From the IMG/VR virus record IMGVR_UViG_3300024306_000049, positions 1 through 38,067 of that record: DNA of 38,067 bases. One strand, 5' to 3'. The notes under the pieces were generated by a model. The model made no database searches and was not told the origin of the DNA. It saw only the letters and a list, made by a program, of their open reading frames with translations. How positions within the stretch are numbered: the first letter of the stretch is position 1; each line of letters starts with the position of its first letter. The translations under genes and the position numbers were made by a program. The DNA is from a virus. Below are positions 4,648-36,156 of this stretch, in pieces.

Positions 4648-4968
4648 ATGCCAAGTTATTATCGGATACTAGACAACGGAGTAGAAAAGCCAATGGCAAG
4701 AGACCGTAAGCCGGCAGACCGCATGAAGCAGGGACTGTCAAAGAGCAAGAACAGCAAGCCAAGCCAGTTCAAGAAGAAGGGCGATTTCCGCATCGGTGGC
4801 ACGTACAGCACCGGTCGTGCGATCACCATCGGAATTCCTGGCCAGAAGCCAAAGGTCAAGGGCAAGGCTGTTGCTGGCAAGGCACAGCAGATTCGCAAGG
4901 CCGACAAGGCTGATGCTTCTAAGCGTCGTATCAGTGGCACGACACGTGGCGGTCGTTCCAAGTATTAA
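4648..4968 (+). CDS. Lysine-rich hypothetical protein, 106 aa
   Basis: A very basic protein with repeated Lys/Ala and Lys/Ser segments (for example GKAVAGKAQQIRKADK) and a GGTYSTGRAITIGIPG strand-like block near the centre. ATG 4648 gives 106 residues; an internal ATG at 4693 (MARDRKPADRMK), with GGAG 11 bases upstream, is an alternative start. The composition suggests binding to DNA or RNA, perhaps inside the capsid. No family was recognised. A long hairpin (4979-5016) begins 10 bases after its stop. Confidence 0.7.
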   Translation: MPSYYRILDNGVEKPMARDRKPADRMKQGLSKSKNSKPSQFKKKGDFRIGGTYSTGRAITIGIPGQKPKVKGKAVAGKAQQIRKADKADASKRRISGTTRGGRSKY

Positions 4969-4978
4969 TCAGTAGGTC

Positions 4979-5016
4979 TGTTGCCTTCCCTCAGGCCACA
5001 CTGGGGGAAGGTAACA
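4979..5016 (+). terminator. Long hairpin, 16-bp stem
   Basis: Bases 4979-4994 pair with 5001-5016 around a 6-base loop (GCCACA): 14 Watson-Crick pairs and two G-U pairs. It fills the gap between 4968 and the next gene. No T-run follows, so it is a U-less terminator or an RNA processing/stability element between the capsid cluster and the adaptor cluster. Confidence 0.75.
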
Positions 5017-5033
5017 AATAGGGCTATTGGTTG

Positions 5034-5249
5034 ATGATGAAAAACGCTCAACCAGCCCATTCGCTTTACGGTGCACCCGTTTCGGGACAACGCCTCGCAT
5101 ATACAGAGAATGCGAAGATTGCGGCACCATCCGGCCCCTATGTGGGCCGTAATCGTTGCATTGGCAACGATGATACCTGTGAGGGCCCAAAGGCCAAAGG
5201 AACTGATTACTGTGTGGGGCATCTGCGTTCACAAGGGCTGGCTAAGTGA
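5034..5249 (+). CDS. Small zinc-binding-like protein, 71 aa
   Basis: A short protein with a C-x6-C-x9-C-x2-H pattern (CIGNDDTC then CVGH) near its C-terminus, consistent with a single zinc site. The N-terminal half (NAQPAHSLYGAPVSGQR) is polar. Start is ATG 5034 or 5037; a TTG at 5031 is also in frame, and no strong ribosome site separates them. Its TGA overlaps the GTG of the adaptor gene by four bases, so translation is probably coupled. Function unknown; position suggests a head or connector accessory protein. Confidence 0.65.
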   Translation: MMKNAQPAHSLYGAPVSGQRLAYTENAKIAAPSGPYVGRNRCIGNDDTCEGPKAKGTDYCVGHLRSQGLAK

Positions 5250-5938
5250 TTACCCTGAATACCCTTCGGGATCAGGTTCGTGCCATGGCCGATCTGGACG
5301 AAACGGATCTTTCCGATTCCGTCATTGACCAGTTTGCCAAGGAAGGTTTTCAGCGCATTTACGCCTTGGAGCGTCGCTGGCCATATTTGCAAACAACGTT
5401 CACAACCTCAACGTCCGCAGGCATCAGATCGTATCTGATTGAAAACATCGGTGATATTCGAGAAATCATTTCAATTGTTGACACAAGTTCATCTGGCAAT
5501 AGGTTTACTTTGATTGACCATAACAATGCGGAAGAGGTTTGGCTCGGGAATACCGACACACCAAGCCGACCGTATTTCTTTTCAATTTGGGAAAAGCAGA
5601 TCCACCTGTGGCCGAAACCAGATACAACCTATACTTTGTTGATTCGTGCATACCGGAACCCGTCATACGACTGGTTGACCAGTCCGGATGACGATATTGA
5701 TTTGGATGAATGGTTCCATGCCATTCTCCCGTATTTTGTTTTGGCACGTGTTTATCAGCGTCAGGAAGACGCAGAGTTGAGTGCGATGTACATGCGCTCC
5801 TTTGAAGAAGGAGTCGCATTTGCTAGACGTGACTTGATGAAAGCTTCAAGCGCACAACCTGTTGTTATGTCCGGTGGCAAGCGTTATCCAACTATGCGTC
5901 GCTGGTTGCAGACGCTTGGGGCGACTCTTGGACAATGA
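5246..5938 (+). CDS. Head-tail adaptor / tail tubular A-like protein
   Basis: A 230-residue protein starting at GTG 5246 (GTGA overlap). The N-terminus reads LRDQVRAMADLDETDLSDS and is followed by a helical bundle with FAKEGFQRIYALERRWPYL. A beta region and a second helical part (ILPYFVLARVYQRQEDAELS) follow. This helix-beta-helix order, between capsid genes and a beta-propeller nozzle, matches the gp11 (T7) or gp4-type (P22) adaptors that ring the portal. The role is inferred from order and general resemblance. It overlaps the nozzle gene by four bases (ATGA). Confidence 0.75.
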   Translation: MITLNTLRDQVRAMADLDETDLSDSVIDQFAKEGFQRIYALERRWPYLQTTFTTSTSAGIRSYLIENIGDIREIISIVDTSSSGNRFTLIDHNNAEEVWLGNTDTPSRPYFFSIWEKQIHLWPKPDTTYTLLIRAYRNPSYDWLTSPDDDIDLDEWFHAILPYFVLARVYQRQEDAELSAMYMRSFEEGVAFARRDLMKASSAQPVVMSGGKRYPTMRRWLQTLGATLGQ

Positions 5939-10556: not shown

Positions 10557-13500
10557 ATGGCTGATGCAAACAACGAACAATTCATACTGGAGAATCTAAA
10601 AAAGATTGGTCAATCCCAAAAGGGAACCAAAGCCAGTATTCCTGGGACGACTGGTATTCGTCGTCCCCAAGGACAAACCAGTGAACTGTTGAATGTCCTG
10701 AACACAGCCAAGAATGTGCCCGTGTCTGCGCCCACAAAGAAGGGCAAGGTTGTTTTGTCAACCGAAGTTAAGGATTTGGCCAAGGATGGTCCTGACGTTT
10801 TGGGCAAACTTTTAAAACCTCTTGAGGTTCTCAGCATTCCTCGTAATGCCATTATTTCAACTGTGAGAGAAGTGGCTGATGTTCTTGATTCTGATCCCAA
10901 TACCAAGGGTAGTTGGGGGGATTGGTTTAATCAGACGAAAGATTCAACCTACGGTTTTGGTAAAGCTTTCCCGATGAAGGGTTGGTTGGGTCGTATCGTT
11001 GGTTTTGCTGGAGACACATTACTTGATCCATTAACATATGCCACTTTGGGTGGAACCGTTGCTAAGGGTGCAACTTTTGTTGATGATGCAGGTAGGGTTC
11101 AAAAGACTCGATCCATTCTTGGTCGAACAGTTGTTGGTCGTGAAGGACGCCAGAAACTGGCAAGTTTTGCAAGAGCACGTGTAGAGAAACTGGCTAGAGA
11201 CGGTCACATTGCTGCTAGTGCAATGAGCAAAGACATGATCTCCGAAATGGTGCGAGATATCGCAGCTCAAGGCAAACGTGCTTTACCAAAGTTCGTTGCT
11301 GATGATATTGGCATTAGGGGTCCCGGGGTTTATTATTTTGGTTCTAGGGTTAAGATTCCAAAGAGCGATAAGTTGGGTTTCTTTTTGGAAAAAGGTATTA
11401 CGAAGATGCGCCTGGGAGCGGTTAATTCGGATGCCATGAAACCATTGATTCGTGCAATAACACCTAGGGGTGTTGGCAGAATTGAGGAATTGGGTCCAAA
11501 TTTTGTTCGTGATGCAAGAATTGCTTTGGCGTCTGGACGTTTGGATCCGATCGATGCCGATAATGCTTTGACCTATCTTGAGATTTTAGATAATAAGCGA
11601 ATTAATGTTGCAGCATATTCAAGTTCAACATCCGATGCATTGGCTGACGAACTTGATGACGTTCTTAACACAACTCAAGATATGCGCTTGTACATGGATA
11701 ATGTTGTGGATCCGAGCACTGTTCCGGGTGCAACAGCAGGTGATATTGACAAGGCTGTTCGTCTCAGGGCCGTGCTTGATGATTTGCGCCTGAAGCTTGA
11801 TGCAAGGGCGCAAGAAGTTGGAGCAAGCCCAATCGGTTATGTTAAGGGTTATGTTCCACGTATTGAAACCGAACAAGGAGCCCGATATAGGCAACTTGTT
11901 GGTGATGATGCATTTGACGAAATGGTTTACGGTCCACCAATTGATTCACGCAGACGTCAATCATTCCGAAGACGAACATTGCAACCAGGAGATGAATGGT
12001 TCGGTCACACCCTGCAACCAGAACAAATGGATAACGCCACATTGAATACTTTGGCACGTAATCCAACGGAAGCTTGGATTGGTAAGACCGGTCGTGAACC
12101 AATTACGTTTGACATTTTTGAAACCGACATGGCAAAAATCTTGAACGGATACATCCGTCAATACGGTGAACAGATGGCCACCTTTGACATGATTGAAGAG
12201 TTTACAACACGCATGCCGCACATGGTTGCATGGTTGGACAAAACATTTGAACTAGACCCAGACTATGTGCGCACAGCTTTGGTGTTGCGTCCCAAAGAAG
12301 CATTTGAAGACAGTGTTGAATCACTCAGGAACTGGTCACGTGTAACCAACGAAGCAGCGGAGCATTCAACATCCACACTTGAGGCTCTTACCGGCACTCT
12401 CCGTGGACGCAAAGAAACCTTGCTTCGCCAAGAGGTATTGGACCAGGATCTTGTTGCGATTGTGGCCCACCTTGATGAGGCATTGAAGCAGGAACAGGCT
12501 GCTTCGCAGGCTGTTCAACAAACCTTTGCCGCATTTGATGACATGCTGGAAAATGTTGATGGTCTATCAAACAATACGCTTGTTATTGCTCAGCGTCAGA
12601 AGCTTGCTGATGAGTATGCTGGTTTGGCTAGCAGGGTTGCTGAGATTCAGAAGAAAATGTCAGCTGATCCGCTGCCTGGTCCTAAGGTATCAGATAAGTT
12701 TGGAAAAGAAATATCCACTCAATGGGTGGCTAATCCTAAAAAAGAAATTCTTGCACTTGTAAACGATTTTGCTGATCACGCCAGGCGTATTGCTAGATTT
12801 GAAAGAGAGATTGATTCTCTTGGTGATGTGCAAGATATTCTGCCTGCGTTTATTAACGCCGGCGAAGTAAATGCTGGAAGCCTCTACGATTCTATGAGTC
12901 GTTTTGTAAAACTCAAAGGCATGCCGAAAGGCAAGCCATTGGTTGGGAATTCAAACTGGAGCCCGACCACAGCACAGGCTGTCGCCAACCTTGGCAACGA
13001 TGCAGATGTTATGAACAGTTTGTTGTCATTCAGCGATGAAACATTTGATGCCATTACCGAAAAACAGGTGAAAAACATTGCCCGATACATTTGGGCTCGC
13101 ATAGCAAGCAATGACTCCAGTTTTGTTAATGATTTCAATAACGGAATCTGGAAGCGTGGCGGAAAACCAACACTTGCCGATGTGTGGCAAACAGCATTCA
13201 AAAATATAGGAAGCAAGGGAAATCCCAAAGTAGTTGTTCAGGATTTGGTCGACATGCTTCACGCTCAAATAGCACTTACTGAATATTTGCAATACAAAGC
13301 CGTATTTGATGAATATGGCCTGCAAATTGGCGACGATGTAATTGATGAAATTCTGCGACGTAAAGCAGAACCCATTTTGGCAAAAGCCGTTAGAGATAAC
13401 GATGTTGAATTGCTGTCACGTTTGACGGATTCACAAAACATTTATGGGCGCACCGACCGAATCGATCATCCGTTTAGCCGATACAAAATGGTTGAGCGTG

Positions 13501-16500
13501 CACGCAAAACACGAGACGACCTTATTGACGAGATTGATAAGACAAACAAACTTAGCCGTGAAAGAAATGCACCAGCAGATGTTAGGGCTGCAAGAACAAA
13601 AGAACTTGATGGTCTTAAGCCCAAGCAGCGTGCTGCGTTCAAAAACTTTATTGCTAGGCAAAAAGCTTCAGCAAGAGCCTATAGGGCTGATCTTGCTCGA
13701 GCGAAAGAAGACTTGAACTTTGTTAATGGTGCTTTGGCCGAAGTGGACTCTAAGTACGGTGCAGCCAAGCAAAAGCTTGTGAAAGAGTTTGGTGACTCGG
13801 CGGCAAAAGGTACTTTGGGTCAACGCTTTAAGGCAACTGTCCAGCGCATCTTTGATAATCCAAAACTTCTCGAAGAATATGTAGAAAAGAAAATTATTGA
13901 ATTGTTTCCTGAAAGTGTTTATGGTCAAGACGTTGGTCGTCTTGTCGCAGAATCATGGAAGTCCCACCATGCCGAAGGGCTGAGAATTGTTTTGACAAGA
14001 GACTCAGCTGATGACGGCGGATATGTCAAACAGATCATTGCGGAAATGTTGAACGGTTTGGATGAGATTATTGATAATGCGGCTTTGGCTGCAAAAACGG
14101 ATCTCAATCTGCAGGCGGATGAAATTGGCAAAGAATTTTCCAGACTGACAGACAAAATCGCATTGCTTGAAGACAACATCAATAACATGATGCCAAGTAC
14201 CTGGTTGAACGGCGAAATGGGGCAACAGGTATACGAAGATGTGCTTATTAGGTCGGAGGGCGTACAGCGTGCAGTACAACCTGGGGCCGGTGACATTCCA
14301 GAGAATGCAAAAAATGTTGAATTCTTGAAGCAGGTATACAGGGATCTTGTTGATAGCGATGAATACCCGATTGCAAAGGCACAGCAGAAAGCGGCGAACA
14401 TTGCGTACATTGTTTCTGAGCTGAATGGGACTGCGGACATTCTTCCTGGCATCAGATTCTCGTCTGAAGAATGGGACGCAATTATGTCCGGGGCGGAGGT
14501 CGCTACGGCGACCAGCCGCAAGCTGGATGCAATTGTCAAGCATGCACGAAACATATTCCAGCAAACAGATCCAGATGAGTTTGCCCGATTGGGTGGAGAA
14601 ATCTCAGACGAATACGCTTTGAAGCGATTCGTTCAAAAGACCATGACCGAGCGGCCAGATATTGTTGCGCCCACAAATGTTGCGCAGACACGCAAGGCCG
14701 CAATTCAAAAGGCGTTTGAGCAGACTGACGGATATCAGCATCTTAAGAAGATTGAAGAATTCCGTGCACGTATTGTTGCTGATGACATTCGTCGCAAGTC
14801 GGTAAACCCACAAACCAAAGCCGATGCTTTGGCTGCTGCCAATGATGAGATTGATAATGCTGCGAATCAGATTGCTCAGGAATTTGATGAGTGGACCCCT
14901 GAATCATCCAAGAAAATTGATGAGCTTATTAGAGAACTCAATATTTGGAAACGTGAAGTAGAGGGCAAACTTGTCACAAAAGAACAGCAAATGTCGAAGG
15001 GGCAAACTGGTGCTTTTCTTGGTTATACGGAAGAAGGCGAAGATATTGCCGCAAATCTGCTTAAAGAAATTGATGAAACAGGATCGTTGAAGTTTACAAA
15101 AGGTCCAGATCGAACACAAAACATTAATGCAGCAGCCCAGGAACAAAGTTTTGAGTTGTTGCGTCAACTGAATTATAACAATGATTTGATTCAGCGTCGT
15201 ATTAGGGCCGTTTTGGATACCCCACTTGAACGCAAGTCTGTTCAAAGACTTTTAGATGAAATTAGATTGCTTGATGAAATCAAGAAATTTAAGATCGATA
15301 TTGATGGTGTGCAGATTTCTCGTGCCTTGCGTGAGCGCAAAGCACAGCTTAACAGGCTTGTGCCGAAAGAAGAATACATTCTTGACACCACTGGACTTAG
15401 TGACGAAAGCGCAAAGTTCCTTAAGGGATGGGAATCAAAAACCAAAAAGGTTGCACGATCAAAGACTTACAAGCAACCTAAAAATGACAACATGGAAAAT
15501 GTTTTGGAGCGCACTATTAGGTCGCAAGACGAACCAAGGGGCGAGTTTGATCCAGATGGCGGTTACGGTCTTTCCGACTACATTGAAAACGCAGAAGAAA
15601 GAGCAGTGCGAGAAGGCATCTACCGTAATCCAGATGGGTCAATATCCGTATGGAGACGAACTGGCTTGCAGGCCAAACCAACCCCCGAAGCCGTAAAACA
15701 ACGACTTTTGGAAACCGTGCCAACACCTATGACACCAGAACTCAGAACACCATCTGGCATCAACGAAGAAGGCCTGAGACTGCTGGAAAACGACCTCAAA
15801 AGGGTCGCCAACACCTCTGATGTGGGCGCAAAACAGGCCGAGCTCGACAGAGCAAGGGCTGTTGTACGGAACTTGGAAGCACAATACGATCAGGCTGCAG
15901 CAGTAATCAATGCCGGCGACCCAGAAGCATTGACCAATGTGCAAGAAGGTTTAGACCTGCTTGAACAAACAGTTGAAGCATTGAAGAACAATATTGAAAT
16001 CAACAATATCAACTCTGGCGACTTGGCAACTGTTAGCAAGCGAAGCGGAGATATCTACAACTCGCTCAAATTTGTTCAAGAAAGACTAAAGGAAGCACGC
16101 AAAGTTGCTGAATACCTTGGTGACAAGAAATCAATGGACCTTATCGACAAAATTATTTTGTCACAAGTTGAAGCAGAACGACAGTTCTTTGAAACATTCG
16201 CACAGTTTGGGCAAGCAAAGTTTGACAACCAAATGCTTGGTGCTGCAGAAGCAATGATTTCATCTGGAGGGAAACTTCTTGAGGATGGAAGAATTGCGCT
16301 TCCATCAGGCGTAATCGTGGATGGTGTGCCACCAGAAATGATTGCTGATGGCATCAGGCAAACAATGACCACTTTTGCCGGCTGGAAAGAACTTGGAACA
16401 TTCTATCCAGGGTTGCAGGGTTCACCAGAATTTATGCAACTTTGGGAAGCAGGATCACGAATGCAATCCCCAGAATGGGTACGCAAACTTGCTTACTATA

Positions 16501-17486
16501 TTGGACCTTACACGAAAGCTTGGAAAGCTTTCGCAGTTCTTTCACCCGGATTCCATGTGCGCAACGCTATTGCAAACGCAGTTACGTACACATTGGCTGA
16601 CGGAAATATGGACAACCTGATAACCATCACCCCAATTTATGCGGCATGGACGAAAGCCAAACGAGCAGGAACAAGCTGGGCAGAATTCTTGCGAAGTTCA
16701 GCAGTTCCACAAGAACTCGTACCGGCTTTGCAAACGGCACGCCTCGGCATGCTTGGATCGGGTGGAGGTATCTTCTCCGAAACCTTCAAAGAAGCAACCA
16801 GCGGAAAGTTTGGTGCACGCATTTATGACAACTGGCTGATCAGAAAGAACCAAGCAATCGGTCAGGCAGCAGACAACTACATGCGATTTGCATTAGCGTT
16901 CGATACCGCCGTGAAAGGCGGCGACGTTGGTCTCGCACAAATTAGAGTAAAACGATTCTACTTCGACTACGAAGACCTTTCACAGTTTGATGAGGTCATG
17001 CGACAAATTGTACCGTTCTGGCTGTGGACAAGCCGAAACCTTACAATGCAAATTCAAAACATGTGGCTGAATCCACGACCATACTTGATCTACGAATCTT
17101 TCAAACGGAACTTTGGTGATAACGAAACGCCACTTCCACCATTCGTAAAAGAATTGGGTGGCTTCAGATTGCCATTTGGCACAGGTATGTACCTGATGCC
17201 AGACATTGGATTCAACCGAATTGGCAAAGACCTAGAAGCTTTCTACAATCCAGTAGAGTTCCTGAACAAAGCCAATCCGTTGATTAAGATCCCGGTCGAA
17301 CAAGCAATGGGAGCAAGCGCATTCACCGGAACAGAGTTTAAGACACCGCAAGACAGGCTTGCAGCGATCCTTAGGGCTGGCGTGCCGCCTGTAGGCCAGG
17401 GAGAAAGACTGTTCGGTAAAGAAGGCTTGTCACAACTCAACGCTTGGCTCGGTTACCTTGGATCACCAGTACGTAAATATAACTAG
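10557..17486 (+). CDS. Giant virion-internal protein, 2309 aa (large polyvalent-type)
   Basis: The gene occupies about 18% of the window. The N-terminus has a membrane-like or amphipathic block near residues 143-170 (GWLGRIVGFAGDTLLDPLTY), a motif seen in giant podoviral internal proteins. Residues 500-1900 are mostly charged helices and coiled coil. A compact C-terminal domain follows (about 1980-2309) with SPGFHVRNAIANAVTY, DTAVKGGDVGLAQIRVKRFY, DYEDLSQFDEVMRQIVPFWL and TSRNLTMQ. I know this type of C-terminus from large phage proteins that travel with the DNA (T7 gp16-like in role, not clearly in sequence). No transglycosylase or protease motif was found by eye. Codon style changes near 15600 (see findings). 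Confidence 0.8.
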   Translation: MADANNEQFILENLKKIGQSQKGTKASIPGTTGIRRPQGQTSELLNVLNTAKNVPVSAPTKKGKVVLSTEVKDLAKDGPDVLGKLLKPLEVLSIPRNAIISTVREVADVLDSDPNTKGSWGDWFNQTKDSTYGFGKAFPMKGWLGRIVGFAGDTLLDPLTYATLGGTVAKGATFVDDAGRVQKTRSILGRTVVGREGRQKLASFARARVEKLARDGHIAASAMSKDMISEMVRDIAAQGKRALPKFVADDIGIRGPGVYYFGSRVKIPKSDKLGFFLEKGITKMRLGAVNSDAMKPLIRAITPRGVGRIEELGPNFVRDARIALASGRLDPIDADNALTYLEILDNKRINVAAYSSSTSDALADELDDVLNTTQDMRLYMDNVVDPSTVPGATAGDIDKAVRLRAVLDDLRLKLDARAQEVGASPIGYVKGYVPRIETEQGARYRQLVGDDAFDEMVYGPPIDSRRRQSFRRRTLQPGDEWFGHTLQPEQMDNATLNTLARNPTEAWIGKTGREPITFDIFETDMAKILNGYIRQYGEQMATFDMIEEFTTRMPHMVAWLDKTFELDPDYVRTALVLRPKEAFEDSVESLRNWSRVTNEAAEHSTSTLEALTGTLRGRKETLLRQEVLDQDLVAIVAHLDEALKQEQAASQAVQQTFAAFDDMLENVDGLSNNTLVIAQRQKLADEYAGLASRVAEIQKKMSADPLPGPKVSDKFGKEISTQWVANPKKEILALVNDFADHARRIARFEREIDSLGDVQDILPAFINAGEVNAGSLYDSMSRFVKLKGMPKGKPLVGNSNWSPTTAQAVANLGNDADVMNSLLSFSDETFDAITEKQVKNIARYIWARIASNDSSFVNDFNNGIWKRGGKPTLADVWQTAFKNIGSKGNPKVVVQDLVDMLHAQIALTEYLQYKAVFDEYGLQIGDDVIDEILRRKAEPILAKAVRDNDVELLSRLTDSQNIYGRTDRIDHPFSRYKMVERARKTRDDLIDEIDKTNKLSRERNAPADVRAARTKELDGLKPKQRAAFKNFIARQKASARAYRADLARAKEDLNFVNGALAEVDSKYGAAKQKLVKEFGDSAAKGTLGQRFKATVQRIFDNPKLLEEYVEKKIIELFPESVYGQDVGRLVAESWKSHHAEGLRIVLTRDSADDGGYVKQIIAEMLNGLDEIIDNAALAAKTDLNLQADEIGKEFSRLTDKIALLEDNINNMMPSTWLNGEMGQQVYEDVLIRSEGVQRAVQPGAGDIPENAKNVEFLKQVYRDLVDSDEYPIAKAQQKAANIAYIVSELNGTADILPGIRFSSEEWDAIMSGAEVATATSRKLDAIVKHARNIFQQTDPDEFARLGGEISDEYALKRFVQKTMTERPDIVAPTNVAQTRKAAIQKAFEQTDGYQHLKKIEEFRARIVADDIRRKSVNPQTKADALAAANDEIDNAANQIAQEFDEWTPESSKKIDELIRELNIWKREVEGKLVTKEQQMSKGQTGAFLGYTEEGEDIAANLLKEIDETGSLKFTKGPDRTQNINAAAQEQSFELLRQLNYNNDLIQRRIRAVLDTPLERKSVQRLLDEIRLLDEIKKFKIDIDGVQISRALRERKAQLNRLVPKEEYILDTTGLSDESAKFLKGWESKTKKVARSKTYKQPKNDNMENVLERTIRSQDEPRGEFDPDGGYGLSDYIENAEERAVREGIYRNPDGSISVWRRTGLQAKPTPEAVKQRLLETVPTPMTPELRTPSGINEEGLRLLENDLKRVANTSDVGAKQAELDRARAVVRNLEAQYDQAAAVINAGDPEALTNVQEGLDLLEQTVEALKNNIEINNINSGDLATVSKRSGDIYNSLKFVQERLKEARKVAEYLGDKKSMDLIDKIILSQVEAERQFFETFAQFGQAKFDNQMLGAAEAMISSGGKLLEDGRIALPSGVIVDGVPPEMIADGIRQTMTTFAGWKELGTFYPGLQGSPEFMQLWEAGSRMQSPEWVRKLAYYIGPYTKAWKAFAVLSPGFHVRNAIANAVTYTLADGNMDNLITITPIYAAWTKAKRAGTSWAEFLRSSAVPQELVPALQTARLGMLGSGGGIFSETFKEATSGKFGARIYDNWLIRKNQAIGQAADNYMRFALAFDTAVKGGDVGLAQIRVKRFYFDYEDLSQFDEVMRQIVPFWLWTSRNLTMQIQNMWLNPRPYLIYESFKRNFGDNETPLPPFVKELGGFRLPFGTGMYLMPDIGFNRIGKDLEAFYNPVEFLNKANPLIKIPVEQAMGASAFTGTEFKTPQDRLAAILRAGVPPVGQGERLFGKEGLSQLNAWLGYLGSPVRKYN

Positions 17487-23610: not shown

Positions 23611-23630
23611 TCAAGTATCGATCAAGTATC
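23611..23630. repeat. Tandem direct repeat TCAAGTATC x2
   Basis: TCAAGTATC occurs at 23611-23619 and 23622-23630, offset by 11 bases (about one helical turn), at the end of the transglycosylase gene. The minus-strand reading includes TTGACA but no well-placed -10 box. The spacing suits a dimeric regulator binding on one face of the DNA. Confidence 0.35.
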
Positions 23631-24065
23631 CCTGAGAAAACCCCAAGGCGACCAACCCTTGCCATGCTTCATGTGGGCGTAATTGTAAATAGCCAACCCG
23701 GCACGAAGATTAATTTCCGGGTCAAATAAATCCGAACGAGCGTTCAGGAGGTCCGCATCAGAAAGATACTTGACCCAGAAACCATTGATTTGCAACAACC
23801 CGAAACTACCCCCACTAGGGTCGGTAGGGTTATGCACATTGTCGTAACACCTTGATTCACGCCACAAAACTCGATCAAGCATCGGCAGCTGCTGGGCTGA
23901 CCAGCCCACAGACTGCGCCAGATTCCACCACTCAGGACATTTAGCACTAACTGGCGGTTCCACCCGAGAATACTCTTCATGACGAGAATATGGGGTCAAA
24001 CCATCCCACGAATCGATGGGCAGAATTGTGATAATAACTGCGGAAATCAAGGCTTTAAGCACCAT
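23622..24065 (-). CDS. Secreted lytic transglycosylase (SLT/lysozyme-like)
   Basis: A 147-residue protein with an N-terminal hydrophobic segment (MVLKALISAVIITILPIDSW) that looks like a signal peptide or anchor, then a goose-lysozyme/SLT domain: LDRVLWRESRC (E70 catalytic), NPTDPSGGSFGLLQING and a C-terminal AGLAIYNYAHMKHGKGW. C43 and C73 may form a disulfide, which suits an extracytoplasmic enzyme. It would cleave glycan strands of peptidoglycan. AAAGGAG precedes ATG 24065. Its place in the early arm, away from the M15 lysin, is unusual. Confidence 0.85.
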   Translation of the reverse strand: MVLKALISAVIITILPIDSWDGLTPYSRHEEYSRVEPPVSAKCPEWWNLAQSVGWSAQQLPMLDRVLWRESRCYDNVHNPTDPSGGSFGLLQINGFWVKYLSDADLLNARSDLFDPEINLRAGLAIYNYAHMKHGKGWSPWGFLRDT

Positions 24066-24762: not shown

Positions 24763-25027
24763 GAATACCCAACTTTCGATTAGACCCACGATCCAAAGTG
24801 ACACCACCCCAAATCCCAGATGAACTTGTTTTTATTCCATACTGAAGACAATCCTTACGCACCTTGCACATTAGACACATACGTACGGCTTGTTTCCTGT
24901 TACGAACATCCTCGCCCGAATCACCATGATTAGGAAACCACCATCGAGTAGGACTGTTCTTGCAATTTGCTTGAGCCATCCATTCCTCACGCAAATGAGG
25001 AAAGGAAATAACTTCAGCATTAGACAT
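24740..25027 (-). CDS. whiB: WhiB-family iron-sulfur transcription factor, 95 aa
   Basis: Four cysteines in WhiB spacing (C22, then C51-x2-C54-x5-C60) would hold a [4Fe-4S] cluster, followed by GIWGG (residues 71-75) and a basic tail (RGSNRKLG) that contacts DNA in the family. WhiB proteins occur in Actinobacteria and their phages and usually act by binding region 4 of the principal sigma factor. ATG 25027 overlaps the upstream stop (ATGTCTAA) with AGAAGG before it; the longer open frame is not needed. Mycobacteriophage WhiB proteins can alter host septation and superinfection; the role here is unknown. Confidence 0.92.
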   Translation of the reverse strand: MSNAEVISFPHLREEWMAQANCKNSPTRWWFPNHGDSGEDVRNRKQAVRMCLMCKVRKDCLQYGIKTSSSGIWGGVTLDRGSNRKLGIRVSNKGL

Positions 25028-25577
25028 CTTTTGCCTTCTTGAAAAGATTAGCAATCTGCTGAACAGCAGCATCCGCAATCAACGCAGACTTCTTATCAAT
25101 CGCCAAATCAAACTCTGACTGCATGTTGTAGTTATCCATGAAACTGCGCATGAACTCAGAAACTTCCATGTTGATCATGGTACGGAAACGACTGCTGTTC
25201 ATCAAAGCCGAAGCAATATCTTCCTTGTTGAGATTTGTGTTTCGCTTCAAATACTCATTGACAATCGTCTGATGATCAATAGAATCTTCGATGCCCTCAC
25301 GAATATATTCTTTGACGATCTCTGCTGTTTGAGTCTGGAAGTTTTGATCGTAAGCAACAGAATCAATCAACTGATCTTTAATCGCTTGCTTGAGCAGATC
25401 AATCATCTGAGCGTTGCGATACCAATCACCACGACTCATCTCTTCCTTGATCATATTGACCACGCTGTCCTTGGTGAAAGAATTTATTCCAGCCTTGACA
25501 CGCTCATCAATAAGATCCTGCATCGTTGAATCCAACTGGACTGTTGCTTCAACTGGCTTAACTTTGATAGTTGGCAT
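25020..25577 (-). CDS. Helical hypothetical protein, 185 aa
   Basis: ATG 25577 has AGGAGG seven bases upstream. An N-terminal strand-like part (IKVKPVEATVQLD) leads into a series of charged helices (RVKAGINSFTKDSVVNMIKE onward) and a Phe/Met-rich C-terminal region (VSEFMRSFMDNYNMQSEFDL). It has no catalytic motif, Cys pattern or membrane segment. It precedes WhiB with an 8-base overlap, so the two are probably made together. No family was recognised. Confidence 0.7.
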   Translation of the reverse strand: MPTIKVKPVEATVQLDSTMQDLIDERVKAGINSFTKDSVVNMIKEEMSRGDWYRNAQMIDLLKQAIKDQLIDSVAYDQNFQTQTAEIVKEYIREGIEDSIDHQTIVNEYLKRNTNLNKEDIASALMNSSRFRTMINMEVSEFMRSFMDNYNMQSEFDLAIDKKSALIADAAVQQIANLFKKAKDV

Positions 25578-25588
25578 ATATCCTCCTG

Positions 25589-26515
25589 TTACCTGAACTC
25601 TGCTAAACGCTTATACGGCTCAAAATCGAAATGCTCATACAACTCATCCCAACATGTACAATCCCACGAACCACAAAACAGGCAACAAGTACATGAAGGA
25701 CAATGAGTAACAATCGCAGAAGCAGGAACAGCTTCCTGCAACTTGCATGTGTAGCAATCAATCAATGATTTATCTTCGCTGATGTATGTGGTGAAAACAT
25801 CGAACTGCTCAAAAATCTCATCAATGCGAGATTCGAGTTTGTCGTCACCAACTTCATCCCAAGATGCCATAGCAACATCACCATCGGCACCGGAATACGA
25901 TTCCATACTCCAACCACCATACGAACTGCCGTATGAACCCAACGAAGAATACACACGGCTGTACTGGTACGAATGGTTTGACCACCACATGTCTTGATCC
26001 CAATGACCATCAGACTCATTCAAAATATAAAAATCATATTTTGCATCATCATCAACAGTTAAAAAGACAAGCTTTGAACCCTTCGCCCAAGCCTCCAATT
26101 TCTTGAAGTACTCATCATCATCCAAAGCAGTAATGCCACCAACTGCCGGCATGATATCCTGGGCAAAGACCTTAGTATCCGAACGAACATCACCAGTAGG
26201 CATCTTCACCGGCAAAATACCGTTATGCCCCACCACACTAAGACGACTGTCACCTAGAAAAAACGGATGACAGTTATTGATATTCGTAGAACCATGCGTG
26301 GCCCACCTAAAGTGGAACATCGCATGACCCGGATTAGATTTACGCAACTCAGTAAACTGATCAGCAACCTGATCAAAATTCATACCATGACCAGTAAGAA
26401 TACGCTTACCAGTCGAGATGGCGAAACCAAAACCATCAGGATTATTGAATGCAGCGTTAGCGAAACGATCCAAATCCGGATTCACATATTCTGGAATAAA
26501 AGTCAACAAACACAT
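25589..26515 (-). CDS. Class II glutamine amidotransferase-like protein with Cys-rich tail
   Basis: A 308-residue protein. The N-terminus MCLLTF puts C2 at the chain start after Met removal, the nucleophile of Ntn-type (class II) glutaminases. NPDGFGFAI (25-33), FHFRWATHG (67-75) and VVGHNGIL (95-101) are the glutamine-binding and oxyanion motifs of that domain. The second half is Tyr/Ser/Gly-rich, and the last 55 residues hold nine cysteines (for example CPSCTCCLFC), probably zinc-binding. It would release ammonia from glutamine. It lies 12 bases downstream of the amidoligase, with AGGAGG before its ATG. Synthetase domains are absent, so a partner enzyme is expected. Confidence 0.82.
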   Translation of the reverse strand: MCLLTFIPEYVNPDLDRFANAAFNNPDGFGFAISTGKRILTGHGMNFDQVADQFTELRKSNPGHAMFHFRWATHGSTNINNCHPFFLGDSRLSVVGHNGILPVKMPTGDVRSDTKVFAQDIMPAVGGITALDDDEYFKKLEAWAKGSKLVFLTVDDDAKYDFYILNESDGHWDQDMWWSNHSYQYSRVYSSLGSYGSSYGGWSMESYSGADGDVAMASWDEVGDDKLESRIDEIFEQFDVFTTYISEDKSLIDCYTCKLQEAVPASAIVTHCPSCTCCLFCGSWDCTCWDELYEHFDFEPYKRLAEFR

Positions 26516-26527
26516 ACGGCCTCCTGA

Positions 26528-27583
26528 TTAACCGATAACACGCTCAGAGATACGCTGCGCAAGAATTGCGTAACGATCCTTGAACTCACCTTCATTGACC
26601 CAAGCCTTGAAAGAATCAAAAGCAAGAGCATTATTCTTCATTACATCCACAGTCGGAAGAGCCGCCGTATACCTGTAAGCAGCGTCAGCCATCTGAATAG
26701 CAGCCTGAACAGTCTCGACACGCAAAGACGGACGGAAGAAACGCAACTCAATCGTCGCACGATTACGCAAATTAATCGCACAATAACGATTATCATTTAT
26801 CGACTTAGCCTTAGCCATATCCATAAACGAATGCCCCGTCCGTGTGTCTTCGTCAAACCAACCCTGACGATTCAAGAAAGCCTTGATATCCCAAGACGCA
26901 TAACCAGACTCACGACCAGCAAACTTGATCATTTCCGCAGAGTTCTTATACATCAAATAAAAGAACTTAAACAAATGCTTCGGACCCGTAAACGCACTAC
27001 GAGACATATGCAAATGCAAACCACAAGAACGACGATTCCAAGCCTTGAAACTCAGATCACTCAAACCAGAAATGGCTTTCCAATTGAAATTGTGCATATA
27101 CCAATCCATAGTCATTGGCATCGTCACAATCTCGAAACCACTAGACAACGAACCATCATGCTTCAAATAAACCTGATCTTCTCCAAGCGAGTTGTAAACA
27201 TGATCCGCACCTTCTGCATACATGTATCCGCATGACTCGGTCTCAAGTTCCATGCCGATATACAGTTCTGTCGGCTTGCTTTGCGAAACATACAAAGCCC
27301 CATCCTCAAACTTGTAATCCAAACCGCTTGGCTGAGGCCAAGTAACCTTGCCATGCAAACCTGAATAAAAGTACATCGTGTCCGGACGATAACTGTAATC
27401 ATAGACACCGCAATCATCCATCATTTGACGCTCCTCATAGTAGCTTCGATCATCCAAGTGCTCGCCGTAGCAACCCTCACAACGCCATTCACCGTCATAA
27501 TCCGATGTGTAACGATCATCCGTGTGATACGACTCACCACATCCGTAACAATCGAAAACATCCTCATCATTTTCCTGTGGCAT
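26528..27583 (-). CDS. Amidoligase-family protein with N-terminal zinc finger
   Basis: A 351-residue protein. Residues 12-38 carry two CxxC pairs (CYGC, CEGC) in a treble-clef-like finger. ELYIGMELETE (E112, E114), YLKHDGSLSSGFEIVT (141-154), SCGLHLHMS (186-194) and a C-terminal YCAINLRNRATIELRFFRPS (267-286) match the glutamine-synthetase-fold amidoligases (COOH-NH2 ligases), in which the acidic residues hold metal and ATP. Such enzymes join a carboxyl to an amine, forming amide bonds on peptides, proteins or wall material. AGGAG precedes ATG 27583. The substrate is unknown. Confidence 0.85.
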   Translation of the reverse strand: MPQENDEDVFDCYGCGESYHTDDRYTSDYDGEWRCEGCYGEHLDDRSYYEERQMMDDCGVYDYSYRPDTMYFYSGLHGKVTWPQPSGLDYKFEDGALYVSQSKPTELYIGMELETESCGYMYAEGADHVYNSLGEDQVYLKHDGSLSSGFEIVTMPMTMDWYMHNFNWKAISGLSDLSFKAWNRRSCGLHLHMSRSAFTGPKHLFKFFYLMYKNSAEMIKFAGRESGYASWDIKAFLNRQGWFDEDTRTGHSFMDMAKAKSINDNRYCAINLRNRATIELRFFRPSLRVETVQAAIQMADAAYRYTAALPTVDVMKNNALAFDSFKAWVNEGEFKDRYAILAQRISERVIG

Positions 27584-27599
27584 TACATGCTCCTAATTT

Positions 27600-27794
27600 T
27601 CAGTAACCTACTTGACTTTCCTCGGGAAACCCTTGTTTTATAAGGGTTCCAGCGGCTTTCAACTGATCAGGCGTCAAACCTCTCCGAACAACAAACTCAA
27701 TGATTTCATCAATCGAAAAGTTCTCAGCCAACAACGGAAACTCAGATTCCAAATACTCTTTGAAATCAGAAAAATCACTTTGCGTCATGAGCAT
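27600..27794 (-). CDS. Small acidic helical protein, 64 aa
   Basis: The frame opens with ATG 27794; an in-frame ATG at 27788 (MTQSDF) is equally possible, and neither has a strong ribosome site. It overlaps the end of the upstream gene. The sequence is acidic and helical (FKEYLESEFPLLAENFSIDE), with a short basic segment in the middle (VVRRGLTPDQLKAAG). It directly precedes the amidoligase by 16 bases and could be a small partner of that module. No family was recognised. Confidence 0.6.
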   Translation of the reverse strand: MLMTQSDFSDFKEYLESEFPLLAENFSIDEIIEFVVRRGLTPDQLKAAGTLIKQGFPEESQVGY

Positions 27795-32450: not shown

Positions 32451-33275
32451 ATGGCAACTCAGAATGTTACAGTGAGTGTTGGCGACGCTATTACGGTTAT
32501 TTCATCTGGCACTATCGGACCAACTGGTTCTCAGGGTGCTCAGGGCGCACAGGGAGCACAGGGGGTCCAAGGTGCACAGGGTTCGCAAGGTTCGACTGGT
32601 CCTCAAGGTGCGCAGGGTGTTGCTGGTCCACAGGGGGTTCAGGGAAATACTGGAGCACAGGGTTCAACTGGTTCGCAAGGAGCACAAGGACCACAGGGTA
32701 CAACTGGCGTTCAGGGTCCTCAGGGCAATACTGGTGCTCAGGGTTCTGTGGGTCCGCAGGGACCACAGGGTAACGCTGGTCCTCAGGGGCCAACTGGTGT
32801 TCAGGGACCGCAAGGCTCCCAAGGTGCTACTGGACCACAGGGTGCCATTGGTCCTCAGGGGGCGCAGGGTGCACAAGGTGCTGTAGGTCCGCAGTCCACC
32901 GTTCAGGGACCACAGGGTGCTCAGGGTCCACAGGGTCCACAGGGTTCTCAGGGAGCAGAGGGTCCGCAGTCAACTTTGGTTGGTCCACAGGGGCCACAAG
33001 GTGCACAGGGACCACAGGGTGCGCAAGGTGCGGCTAGTACGGTTGCTGGACCACAAGGTCCGCAGGGAGCAACTGGACCTCAGGGGAGTGCTGGTACTAC
33101 TGGCGCACAAGGGGCACAAGGGCCACAGGGTCCACAAGGTGCAAATGGTGCGCAAGGTGCAACAGGTTCTCAGGGGCCGCAAGGGCCACAAGGTGCAAGT
33201 GGAGCGCAGGGAGTAAACGGTTCGGCTGTGTATGACACAGATACAGCGGTTATCTCAATGCAGGTGTTTGCATAA
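32451..33275 (+). CDS. Collagen-like fibre protein, 274 aa
   Basis: A short beta N-terminus (residues 1-19) leads into about 75 Gly-X-Y triplets (residues 20-256), mostly GAQ, GPQ, GSQ and GxT, then an 18-residue end ([16 protein letters not shown]) that may nucleate trimer formation or contact the receptor. The triplets would form a rigid triple helix. Three breaks read STVQ, STLV and STVA at spacings of six to seven triplets. Probably a virion fibre for host contact. It follows the BppU-like gene by two bases and precedes a glycosyltransferase by two. Confidence 0.9.
32508..33218 (+). repeat. Collagen-type 9-base repeat region
   Basis: The DNA repeats a GGN-NNN-CAR-like 9-base unit about 75 times, with synonymous variation (GGT/GGA/GGG/GGC; CAG/CAA). 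It is prone to length change by slippage or unequal recombination. The mild codon scrambling may limit that. Confidence 0.85.
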
Positions 33276-33277
33276 AA

Positions 33278-34066
33278 ATGATTTCTGTCGTCACAACGAC
33301 ATACAACACAAATCCAGATGTTCTAGCAAGAACATGGGCATCTTTGAAGGCACAAACCTTCAGAGACTGGGAGTGGGTCATCTGGGATGATTCGACAACC
33401 AATGATGTCTGGAATCAGGTTTATGGATTTGCTTCTGATGAACGTTACAAGATTCAGATGCACCGCTCTCATGTGCATTCTGGCTCAATTGGTTCGGTGA
33501 AACGCAAGGGGTTCATGGTTGCCGAAGGCGTCATACTGGCGGAACTCGACCACGATGACGAACTGACTGTGGATTGCCTTCAGAAGGTAAATGACGCATT
33601 CTTGGCAAACCCAGATGCTGGGTTCGTGTATTCGGACTGGTGCGAGATTCTCCCTTCGGGTGAGTCTGGGGTGTACCCTAAAGGCTGGGCCTTTGGGTAC
33701 GGCTCCGAGTATTGGTCAGACCAGTACGGGGTGTGGGTGATGTCGGCCCCACCAGTCAACGAAATAACGATGGGACATATCGTGTCCGCCCCAAACCACA
33801 TCAGGGCTTGGAAAGCAGACTTGTACAGGGAAATTGGTGGGCATAATTCAGCCCTTCCAGTAGCAGATGATTACGAACTATGCGTTCGAACCTACCTTGC
33901 AACCGACATGGTGCACATTCCCGAGATGCTGTACAGACAGCACATTGGGGGTCATACGGCCCAGCGTCGGCGTAACGATTTGATACAAAGGTTGGTGGCA
34001 GAGATTTCTGCGGAATACGCTGGGTCTATAAAAGCCAAAGCATCATGTAACGAACGGAGTCTTTAG
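33278..34066 (+). CDS. Family 2 (GT-A fold) glycosyltransferase, 262 aa
   Basis: An N-terminal nucleotide-sugar domain begins MISVVTTTYNTNPDVLARTW, with VIWDDST and LAELDHDDEL (residues 88-96); the DHDD is the metal/sugar-nucleotide motif of the family. HIRAWKADLYREIGGHN and VADDYELCVRTYL match the acceptor-side motif with the catalytic base region. No membrane segment, so it acts in the cytoplasm. It sits directly after the collagen-like gene. The likely target is a virion protein, perhaps that fibre, though host wall glycans are possible. Confidence 0.85.
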   Translation: MISVVTTTYNTNPDVLARTWASLKAQTFRDWEWVIWDDSTTNDVWNQVYGFASDERYKIQMHRSHVHSGSIGSVKRKGFMVAEGVILAELDHDDELTVDCLQKVNDAFLANPDAGFVYSDWCEILPSGESGVYPKGWAFGYGSEYWSDQYGVWVMSAPPVNEITMGHIVSAPNHIRAWKADLYREIGGHNSALPVADDYELCVRTYLATDMVHIPEMLYRQHIGGHTAQRRRNDLIQRLVAEISAEYAGSIKAKASCNERSL

Positions 34067-34441: not shown

Positions 34442-35314
34442 GTGCCGAATCGTCGGACACTTGGTTATGTGAGTGCGCTCACAGCGCAGTCACTAACAAC
34501 GTATGGAACCGCATCAGGTGGTACTGGTTCCATCACGCCATTTACGACTGCTGGTATCACTTACAACGGTGTCTATTTCAACTCCGATGGAACTTTGACT
34601 GTTACTACTGGCGGTTTGTTTGATGTGCTTCTTGTTGGTGGTGGTGGTGGTGGATTCGCTACAACGGGTGGTGGCGGTGGCGGTGGTGGCGGTGGTGTTT
34701 CACAACGCACCATCTATCTCGCTGCTGGAACACACTCAGTTGTAGTTGGTGCTGGTGGTGCTGCGACCGCTAGTGAAACGGGTGGTGCTTCATACATCGG
34801 CACAACGAGCAACGCAATCGTCGCTGCTGGTGGTGGCTGTATGAACTTCGGAACAGAACGAGGATTGGCTGGTGCTTCAACTGCTGGTTGTCGTGGAAAC
34901 AACAACACAGGACAAAGCAATGTCGGTATCGCAACGCAAGGCAATCGTGGCGGTCTTGGCGCAGGTGGTTCTGGTACTGCTGCTGGTGGCGGTGGTGGCG
35001 CAGGCGCAGTAGGCAATGTTGGCACAGATAATGTTGTTGGTGGCTCTGGTGGTGCAGGTGCAGATATTTCAGCGTTCTTAGGTCAATCTGCTGGCACGAC
35101 TTATAGGGGCGGTGGCGGTGGTGGCGGTTGCTCTAACGGCACTGGCGGTGCAGGTGGTTCTGGTGGCGGTGGAAAAGGCACTAACTCATCTTCGTCATCT
35201 GCTGTTGCTGGCACAACAAACACTGGCGGTGGAGGCGGAGGTGGAGACGGTTCGTGGCCTGCTGCTGCTGGTGGGTCAGGCATCGTTTATGTTCGATGGG
35301 CGGTGAACGCATGA
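34442..35314 (+). CDS. Glycine-rich tail tip/receptor-binding candidate 1, 290 aa
   Basis: The N-terminal beta domain (RRTLGYVSALTAQSLTTYG; then GTLTVTTGGLFDVLLVGGGG) is followed by a long glycine-rich region (about residues 66-280) with GGGGGGGG runs, and by a C-terminal strand GSGIVYVRWAVNA. This is the layout of glycine-rich receptor-binding modules known in phage tail fibres, where polyglycine II sheets form a packed core with variable loops. Start is GTG 34442, close behind the previous stop. It is a paralog of the next gene. Confidence 0.75.
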   Translation: MPNRRTLGYVSALTAQSLTTYGTASGGTGSITPFTTAGITYNGVYFNSDGTLTVTTGGLFDVLLVGGGGGGFATTGGGGGGGGGGVSQRTIYLAAGTHSVVVGAGGAATASETGGASYIGTTSNAIVAAGGGCMNFGTERGLAGASTAGCRGNNNTGQSNVGIATQGNRGGLGAGGSGTAAGGGGGAGAVGNVGTDNVVGGSGGAGADISAFLGQSAGTTYRGGGGGGGCSNGTGGAGGSGGGGKGTNSSSSSAVAGTTNTGGGGGGGDGSWPAAAGGSGIVYVRWAVNA

Positions 35315-36156
35315 GAGTCGGTGGTTATGTAAGCGCAAACTTCATTCAGGGTGTTATCGGCGTTATCGGTTACGGGGTTGCAACTGGCGGAACATCGTCG
35401 AGCATCACCGTTTCTGGTCAGTCATACACACTTTTGACTTTCACATCAAGCGGAACTTTGACTGTTTCCAAGTCTGGACTTTTTGATGTTTTGGCAGTTG
35501 GCGGAGGCGGTCATGGTGCACAACGAGGAGATACTGTTGTTACTGGCTCTGGCGGAGGCGCAGGTGGTGTAGTTATCGCAACTGTGTACCTTTCATCAAA
35601 CAAAACAATTACCATTGGTGCTGGCGGTGGGGGTGTAAATAGCGGTTCAACCTTTGTTTATACTGATTCTGGTTGTATTGTCGCTGGCTACGGTGGTAGT
35701 GGGATTGCAACTAGTGGTCCATTTGACTCACTGTACGGTGCTTCTGCTGGTGGTCAATCACATACAGCAAATACAACTGCATATAATAATTTTGGTAATC
35801 AAGGTAATCTGGGTGGTTACGGAAATACAGGCGTTGCACAAGGGTCTGGCGGAGGTGGTGGATTCGGTGGGGCTGGTCAGAACTTTGTGAGCAGCAATGT
35901 TGGTGGTGCTGGTGGAACAGGTTACGACATAAGCGGTTTCATTGGTGGTTCCGCAACCTATGTTGCAGGCGGTGGTGGTGGTGGCGGTGCTACGACTGGT
36001 GGCGCTGGGGGTAGTGGTGTTGGCGGAAATGGTGCTGCTGGAACAGGGAATGCTACCAATGGTGTTGTAAATACTGGCTCTGGAGGCGGCGGTTCAACAA
36101 CAGGAACACGAGGGTTAGGTAGTTCTGGTGTTGTTTATGTTCGGTTCAAGGTATAA
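35311..36156 (+). CDS. Glycine-rich tail tip/receptor-binding candidate 2, 281 aa
   Basis: ATG 35311 overlaps the preceding stop (ATGA). The N-terminus MRVGGYVSANFIQGVIGVIG has a hydrophobic stretch; then SSGTLTVSKSGLFDVLAVGGG, a glycine-rich body and the end GSSGVVYVRFKV. These anchors match the previous gene in order and sequence, so the two arose by duplication, but the loops between Gly runs differ. Two alternative adhesins in one virion, or a heteromeric tip, would fit. An open in-frame extension to 35254 is a shadow of the first gene. Confidence 0.75.
   Translation: MRVGGYVSANFIQGVIGVIGYGVATGGTSSSITVSGQSYTLLTFTSSGTLTVSKSGLFDVLAVGGGGHGAQRGDTVVTGSGGGAGGVVIATVYLSSNKTITIGAGGGGVNSGSTFVYTDSGCIVAGYGGSGIATSGPFDSLYGASAGGQSHTANTTAYNNFGNQGNLGGYGNTGVAQGSGGGGGFGGAGQNFVSSNVGGAGGTGYDISGFIGGSATYVAGGGGGGGATTGGAGGSGVGGNGAAGTGNATNGVVNTGSGGGGSTTGTRGLGSSGVVYVRFKV

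Follow-up and report, generated by a model that had tools for sequence, protein, structure and literature searches.

A finger-bearing amidoligase and a stand-alone class II glutaminase form a near-obligate gene pair in phages and Clostridia

The virus contig considered here, a stretch of 38,067 bases that we refer to as a whole as the window, carries two adjacent minus-strand genes, which raise the question of whether an amidoligase and a stand-alone glutaminase act together as one amide-forming system and, if so, which carboxyl group that system modifies. For over ten years, annotations of phage pairs of this type have come with the proposal that they modify the wall and block superinfection, an idea that reportedly originates with Iyer 2009 and Hardies 2013, and in the literature on these pairs we found no experimental test of that role. 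The pair itself has thus been seen before and is not new; what is documented here is its near-obligate linkage. The contig contains portal, scaffold, helicase, primase, exonuclease, tail, and WhiB genes, as in actinophages, and in the direction of transcription the minus strand runs from a 64-aa ORF (27794–27600) through the amidoligase (27583–26528) and the glutaminase (26515–25589) to a 185-aa ORF (25577–25020), followed by a WhiB-like gene and then others. The amidoligase, a glutamine-synthetase-like carboxylate-amine ligase of 351 aa, comprises a Cys4 LIM-like finger (residues 12–38, with C12, C15, C35, and C38; 27470–27550, minus strand) and a ligase domain (residues ~95–351), and the glutaminase, a class II (Ntn-type) glutamine amidotransferase domain of 308 aa with catalytic Cys2, ends in an eight-cysteine C-terminal region (C254–C288; 25652–25756, minus strand) that may bind zinc. 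Both ORFs are intact and lie where the sequence-only reading had placed them, separated by a 12-nt gap (26516–26527, minus strand) in which the glutaminase has its AGGAGG ribosome site; the Shine-Dalgarno sequences in front of the two starts are AGGAGG and AGGAG. All the motifs quoted in that reading are likewise present, namely E112/E114, HDGS (D143–S145), CGLHLH (187–192), RATIELRFF (to F283), and the glutaminase Cys2. A promoter scan gave no more matches than shuffled sequences did, no known RNA element was found, and PADLOC returned no meaningful match to a known anti-phage defence family.

The identity of the two proteins is not rested on Pfam, because both window proteins score below threshold there: the amidoligase reaches 16.5 bits against Amidoligase_2 (PF12224; cut-off 22) and the glutaminase 16.2 bits against GATase_4 (cut-off 23). 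Their relatives clearly exceed the cut-offs, with 38.5 and 44.1 bits; for the ligase, a close relative (L009) reaches 23.2 bits and clostridial relatives 36–38 bits. In PHROG, the two proteins match families of unknown function at 1e-29 and 1e-42, and the amidoligase family is matched at 1e-7. An AlphaFold2 model of the amidoligase built on 67 sequences (pLDDT 87) matches YbdK (1r8g; Z 11.8, rmsd 4.0 over 223 residues) and also glutamine synthetases, plant glutamate-cysteine ligase (GCL), and GmaS at Z ~10–11, and the Foldseek list for the same model includes PafA and Dop. The predicted catalytic fold is therefore of the glutamine-synthetase type, and a sequence search against solved structures retrieved no amidoligase, the finger region being the only part matched. 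Fifteen positions are invariant in the 67 ligases, which include sequences of phages as well as of bacterial genomes (G110, E112, E114, D143, S145, E151, G188, H190, H192, R224, R266, N271, T277, E279, and R281), and the putative metal and ATP residues ExE, DxS, E151, HxH, N271, and ExR are thus present throughout. We take these invariant residues to correspond to the metal and ATP ligands of glutamine synthetase, and the eight-residue spacing from D143 to E151 matches that from E212 to E220 in the bacterial enzyme.

The glutaminase model, built on 57 sequences (pLDDT 85), superimposes on the glutaminase domain of GlmS (1xff) with Z 14.1 and rmsd 3.6 over 172 residues, on EgtC (4zfk/4zfj) with Z 13.5, and on PurF with Z 13.2, and the predicted fold is that of the Ntn-type glutaminases. 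The sequence profile leads to the same enzymes, with GlmS at E 1.4e-10 and PurF also among the matches, the whole spanning 1e-10 to 1e-7, and it places the motifs MC, R.ATHG, N.HP, and HNG in register with GlmS; EgtC, by contrast with its structural score, has no match in this profile search even at E 10. Residues C2, R70, T73, H83, H97, N98, G99, and S179 are invariant in the 57 glutaminases. They include the nucleophilic cysteine directly after the initiator methionine and the residues of the glutamine-binding loop (R..T.G) and HNG oxyanion motif (R70, T73, H97, N98, and G99), each found in all 57. D113, at the position of the aspartate that holds the amino group of glutamine, is invariant in 12 phage glutaminases and aligned with an aspartate in 38 of the 57 overall, the alignment in Clostridia being unsure at this point. 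The claim of an amidoligase beside a stand-alone glutaminase is thereby borne out. Each has a complete active site, and degenerate sites are rejected on the invariance of the catalytic residues in 67 ligases and 57 glutaminases.

Co-occurrence had been chosen beforehand as the test of the pairing, with rarity counting against it, and the pairing survived. Viral contigs were scanned with the ligase alone for the glutaminase and then with the glutaminase alone for the ligase, each scan being limited to the best 80 of over 500, which leaves very distant relatives uncounted (divergence within the counts is still large, with a mean ligase distance of 0.59); because the two scans share loci, they are not independent samples. 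In the forward direction 80 of 82 amidoligase loci have the glutaminase as the next gene downstream, in the same orientation, the two misses being truncated by contig ends, and in the reverse direction the amidoligase lies directly upstream in 79 of 80 glutaminase loci, the single miss starting at a contig end; no intact viral locus of these scans lacks its partner in either direction. Across 80 loci comprising 5687 ORF segments, there are 80 glutaminase matches, exactly those expected, which is well beyond chance. Bacterial genomes carry the adjacent, same-strand pair in 73 of 80 loci, the other seven comprising two cut by contig ends, four with a glutaminase within ~1.5 kb, and one in which none was found. 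The median gap between the two genes is ~32 nt in viruses and 1 nt in bacteria, and no fusion of amidoligase to glutaminase occurs among all ORFs. Since the linkage holds without exception in intact viral loci from both search directions, the two proteins ought to be studied together, and the general core of such systems is narrowed to ligase plus glutaminase. One exception is the Clostridioides difficile phage AR1086-1 (L018), in which an amidoligase without fingers (4674–5786) has no adjoining glutaminase, the next gene being nucleotidyltransferase-like; this source of ammonia may therefore be dispensable for some amidoligases.

The two proteins have correlated distance matrices (r 0.90 for viral and 0.73 for bacterial pairs), in part owing to shared (phage) ancestry. 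When the window is compared with its nearest relative, dN/dS is ~0.03–0.07 for the two genes, and it is mostly 0.05–0.35 elsewhere; both genes are accordingly under purifying selection, synonymous changes far exceeding replacements. The active sites are invariant as well, and therefore both proteins are kept functional. The bacterial pair loci are almost all from Clostridia, with serine recombinases, integrases, relaxases, replication genes, DUF960, and DUF3846 as neighbours, a gene content that marks them as mobile elements. Three clostridial pairs (L104, L159, and L177) lie beside DUF3846-like genes, two of them (L104 and L177) with serine resolvases as well, as a recurring small mobile module. 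Chromosomal actinobacterial copies were absent from the top 80 loci of the genome scan, which are nearly all clostridial.

Both window proteins were said in the sequence-only reading to carry cysteine-rich fingers that may bind each other. Such fingers are present in both, but across the relatives only the ligase fingers are general. The Cys4 motif of the amidoligase is kept in 64–67 of 67 sequences, and ligase fingers occur in ~65 of 70 viral and ~70 of 72 bacterial full-length pairs, in widely varying number, the motif being multiplied in many relatives and some members having many CxxC pairs. A profile of the finger region matches LIM domains in the PDB (1b8t, E 9e-6). The eight cysteines of the glutaminase (C254–C288) are invariant in a phage set and hardly ever present in Clostridia, and the tail is a feature of the phage branch; because Clostridia lack it, mutual binding of fingers is not a general rule. 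In phiEco32 and LUZ24 the ligase is without CxxC and the glutaminase has it, so that nearly every pair carries fingers, though not always on the same subunit.

Several known systems help to place the pair. It is annotated in Marvin-like mycobacteriophages and in OM43 phages, and is present in an uncultivated podovirus. Like the window, the cluster S mycobacteriophage Marvin has an adjacent finger-bearing amidoligase (gp105) and class II glutaminase with a Cys-rich tail (gp106), at ~29% and 43% identity to the window proteins, but it belongs to another phage lineage of different composition (63% GC), has different neighbouring genes, and its ligase bears a long extra C-terminal region. The OM43 phages MEP401 and MEP402 (PMC10580990) also have an adjacent pair, overlapping and upstream of replication genes, with a ligase finger, but the glutaminase lacks the eight-Cys tail and the host is proteobacterial. 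In phiEco32 and LUZ24 the pair forms the centre of a longer cassette. As in the window, the cassette of phiEco32, LUZ24, and RIO-1 has the class II glutaminase directly after the amidoligase, both detectably homologous to the window proteins (those of LUZ24 included), but it adds a second COOH-NH2 ligase, a RimK-like ATP-grasp protein, and a gamma-glutamyl cyclotransferase (GGCT), its amidoligase is fingerless, and its glutaminase is 510–676 aa long with Cys pairs. Neither the COOH-NH2 ligase nor the RimK-like ATP-grasp protein has a phmmer match in the window, which may itself be a fragment, or in any of the fetched flanks, the positive controls having been found across phages, and Pfam and PHROG scans gave no match to these two genes either; the GGCT likewise has no match, with a less sensitive single-sequence query that did not link the two control phages either. 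The window pair is thus a short, finger-bearing, two-gene core form of a known kind.

We consider it probable, with confidence somewhat above even, that the products of the two genes are subunits of a single amide synthetase that depends on glutamine, organized like MurT/GatD but assembled from other folds; the gene pair, the conserved sites, the predicted folds, and the linkage all speak for this reading, in which the two proteins would form a complex. The glutaminase subunit, once Met1 is removed, would hydrolyse glutamine with its N-terminal Cys2 and hand the ammonia, possibly through a channel, to the amidoligase subunit, which in the manner of glutamine synthetase would use ATP-Mg to convert a carboxyl group to its acyl phosphate and then to the amide. 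The LIM-like fingers of the ligase could either hold the glutaminase, comparable to the zinc-ribbon-like insertion with which MurT contributes to its interface with GatD, or serve to recruit the target; the cysteine-rich insertion of the MurT/GatD ligase at its glutaminase interface provides the precedent (PMC6085368). MurT/GatD itself combines a Mur-ligase fold with a class I glutaminase (PMC6085368), unlike the window chains, which match glutamine-synthetase-like and class II folds. The pair sits among replication-side genes and therefore probably acts early, before lysis.

A different division of labour is offered by EgtA/EgtC of ergothioneine synthesis, which also combines a ligase of the glutamine synthetase superfamily with a stand-alone class II domain (EgtC), but in which the two proteins are steps of a pathway and EgtC hydrolyses a gamma-glutamyl intermediate. 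By analogy, the window ligase would join two larger molecules by an amide, for example a gamma-glutamyl group to a peptide or an amine; the class II domain would then act as a hydrolase that trims the gamma-glutamyl product instead of supplying ammonia. In the fold comparison EgtC ranks close to the top for the glutaminase, its Z within 1 of that of GlmS, and YbdK and GCL, which are among the best for the ligase, make gamma-glutamyl bonds; at the level of sequence profiles, however, the glutaminase is linked to GlmS and PurF and not to EgtC, and one-to-one operon linkage without further pathway genes fits subunits better than pathway steps. We regard this arrangement as quite improbable.

With the two-subunit amide synthetase as the preferred reading, the remaining question is that of its target, for which a cell-envelope carboxyl such as that of D-iso-Glu or meso-DAP is the single most likely guess, held tentatively and at less than an even chance. 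The pair would then amidate peptidoglycan precursors and protect the infected cell against other phages or premature lysis, as a short form of the phiEco32/LUZ24/RIO-1 cassette. The longer cassettes for which this role is proposed (PMC5498523, PMC10580990) contain these two genes in the order seen here, MurT/GatD carries out this very reaction with other folds, and the window and 28 actinophage loci have a lysozyme-like gene some kilobases further downstream, in the same orientation. Such a lysin gene is, however, to be expected nearby in any small phage genome, neither the window nor any fetched flank has the COOH-NH2 ligase or the RimK-like ATP-grasp gene that the cassette adds, and the literature on such cassettes yielded no experimental demonstration of the role. 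Wall modification with exclusion of other phages has already been proposed for the cassettes (PMC5498523; PMC11945000), and PMC10580990 presents the wall and superinfection idea as published earlier, citing Iyer 2009. Amidation of a carboxyl on a host or phage protein, in a side chain or at the C-terminus, where the LIM-like fingers would be an adaptor for selecting the protein, is somewhat doubtful: it accords with the LIM match, with the retention of fingers in most pairs, with the occurrence of the pair on integrative elements and not on phages alone, and with the presence of the protein-modifying PafA in the fold class of the ligase, but the number of fingers varies widely, the phiEco32 and LUZ24 ligases have none, and, on the model of MurT/GatD, the role of the fingers may be no more than to bind the other subunit. 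A metabolite carboxyl as the target appears unlikely. It is similarly a long shot that the two-gene form with fingers is a mobile device for protein amidation, complete in itself and separate from the longer wall cassettes. Its fingers would then select a host protein, a carboxyl of that protein would be capped as an amide, and the modification would help actinophages, phages of proteobacteria, and integrative elements of Clostridia, for example by disarming a defence or a host regulator. The question of the target is experimentally accessible because the same pair occurs in Marvin, whose host Mycobacterium smegmatis is easy to work with.

The genes around the pair add little to its composition. 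The small acidic 64-aa ORF (27600–27794), put forward as a third member, had no homologue in 153 other pairs, iterated profile search included, and is rejected. The 185-aa ORF (25020–25577, minus strand) has no convincing Pfam or PHROG match; 30 actinophage loci share it, 14 of which have it immediately behind the glutaminase gene, and it is absent from other groups, and therefore it is a lineage gene and not part of the system. In the same minus-strand run as the pair and the WhiB-like gene lies an SLT_3/lysozyme-like ORF with a hydrophobic N terminus (23622–24065). On the plus strand, a 2309-aa ORF (10557–17486) has no PHROG match at 1e-3. A family 2 glycosyltransferase gene (33278–34066, plus strand), possibly for glycosylation of the virion or its fibres, stands between a collagen-like tail fibre gene (32451–33275) and glycine-rich genes, and two consecutive, overlapping ORFs on the plus strand (34442–35314 and 35254–36156), both matching phrog_2295 and the first also a glycine-rich domain, are tandem paralogues that probably encode tail or appendage proteins.
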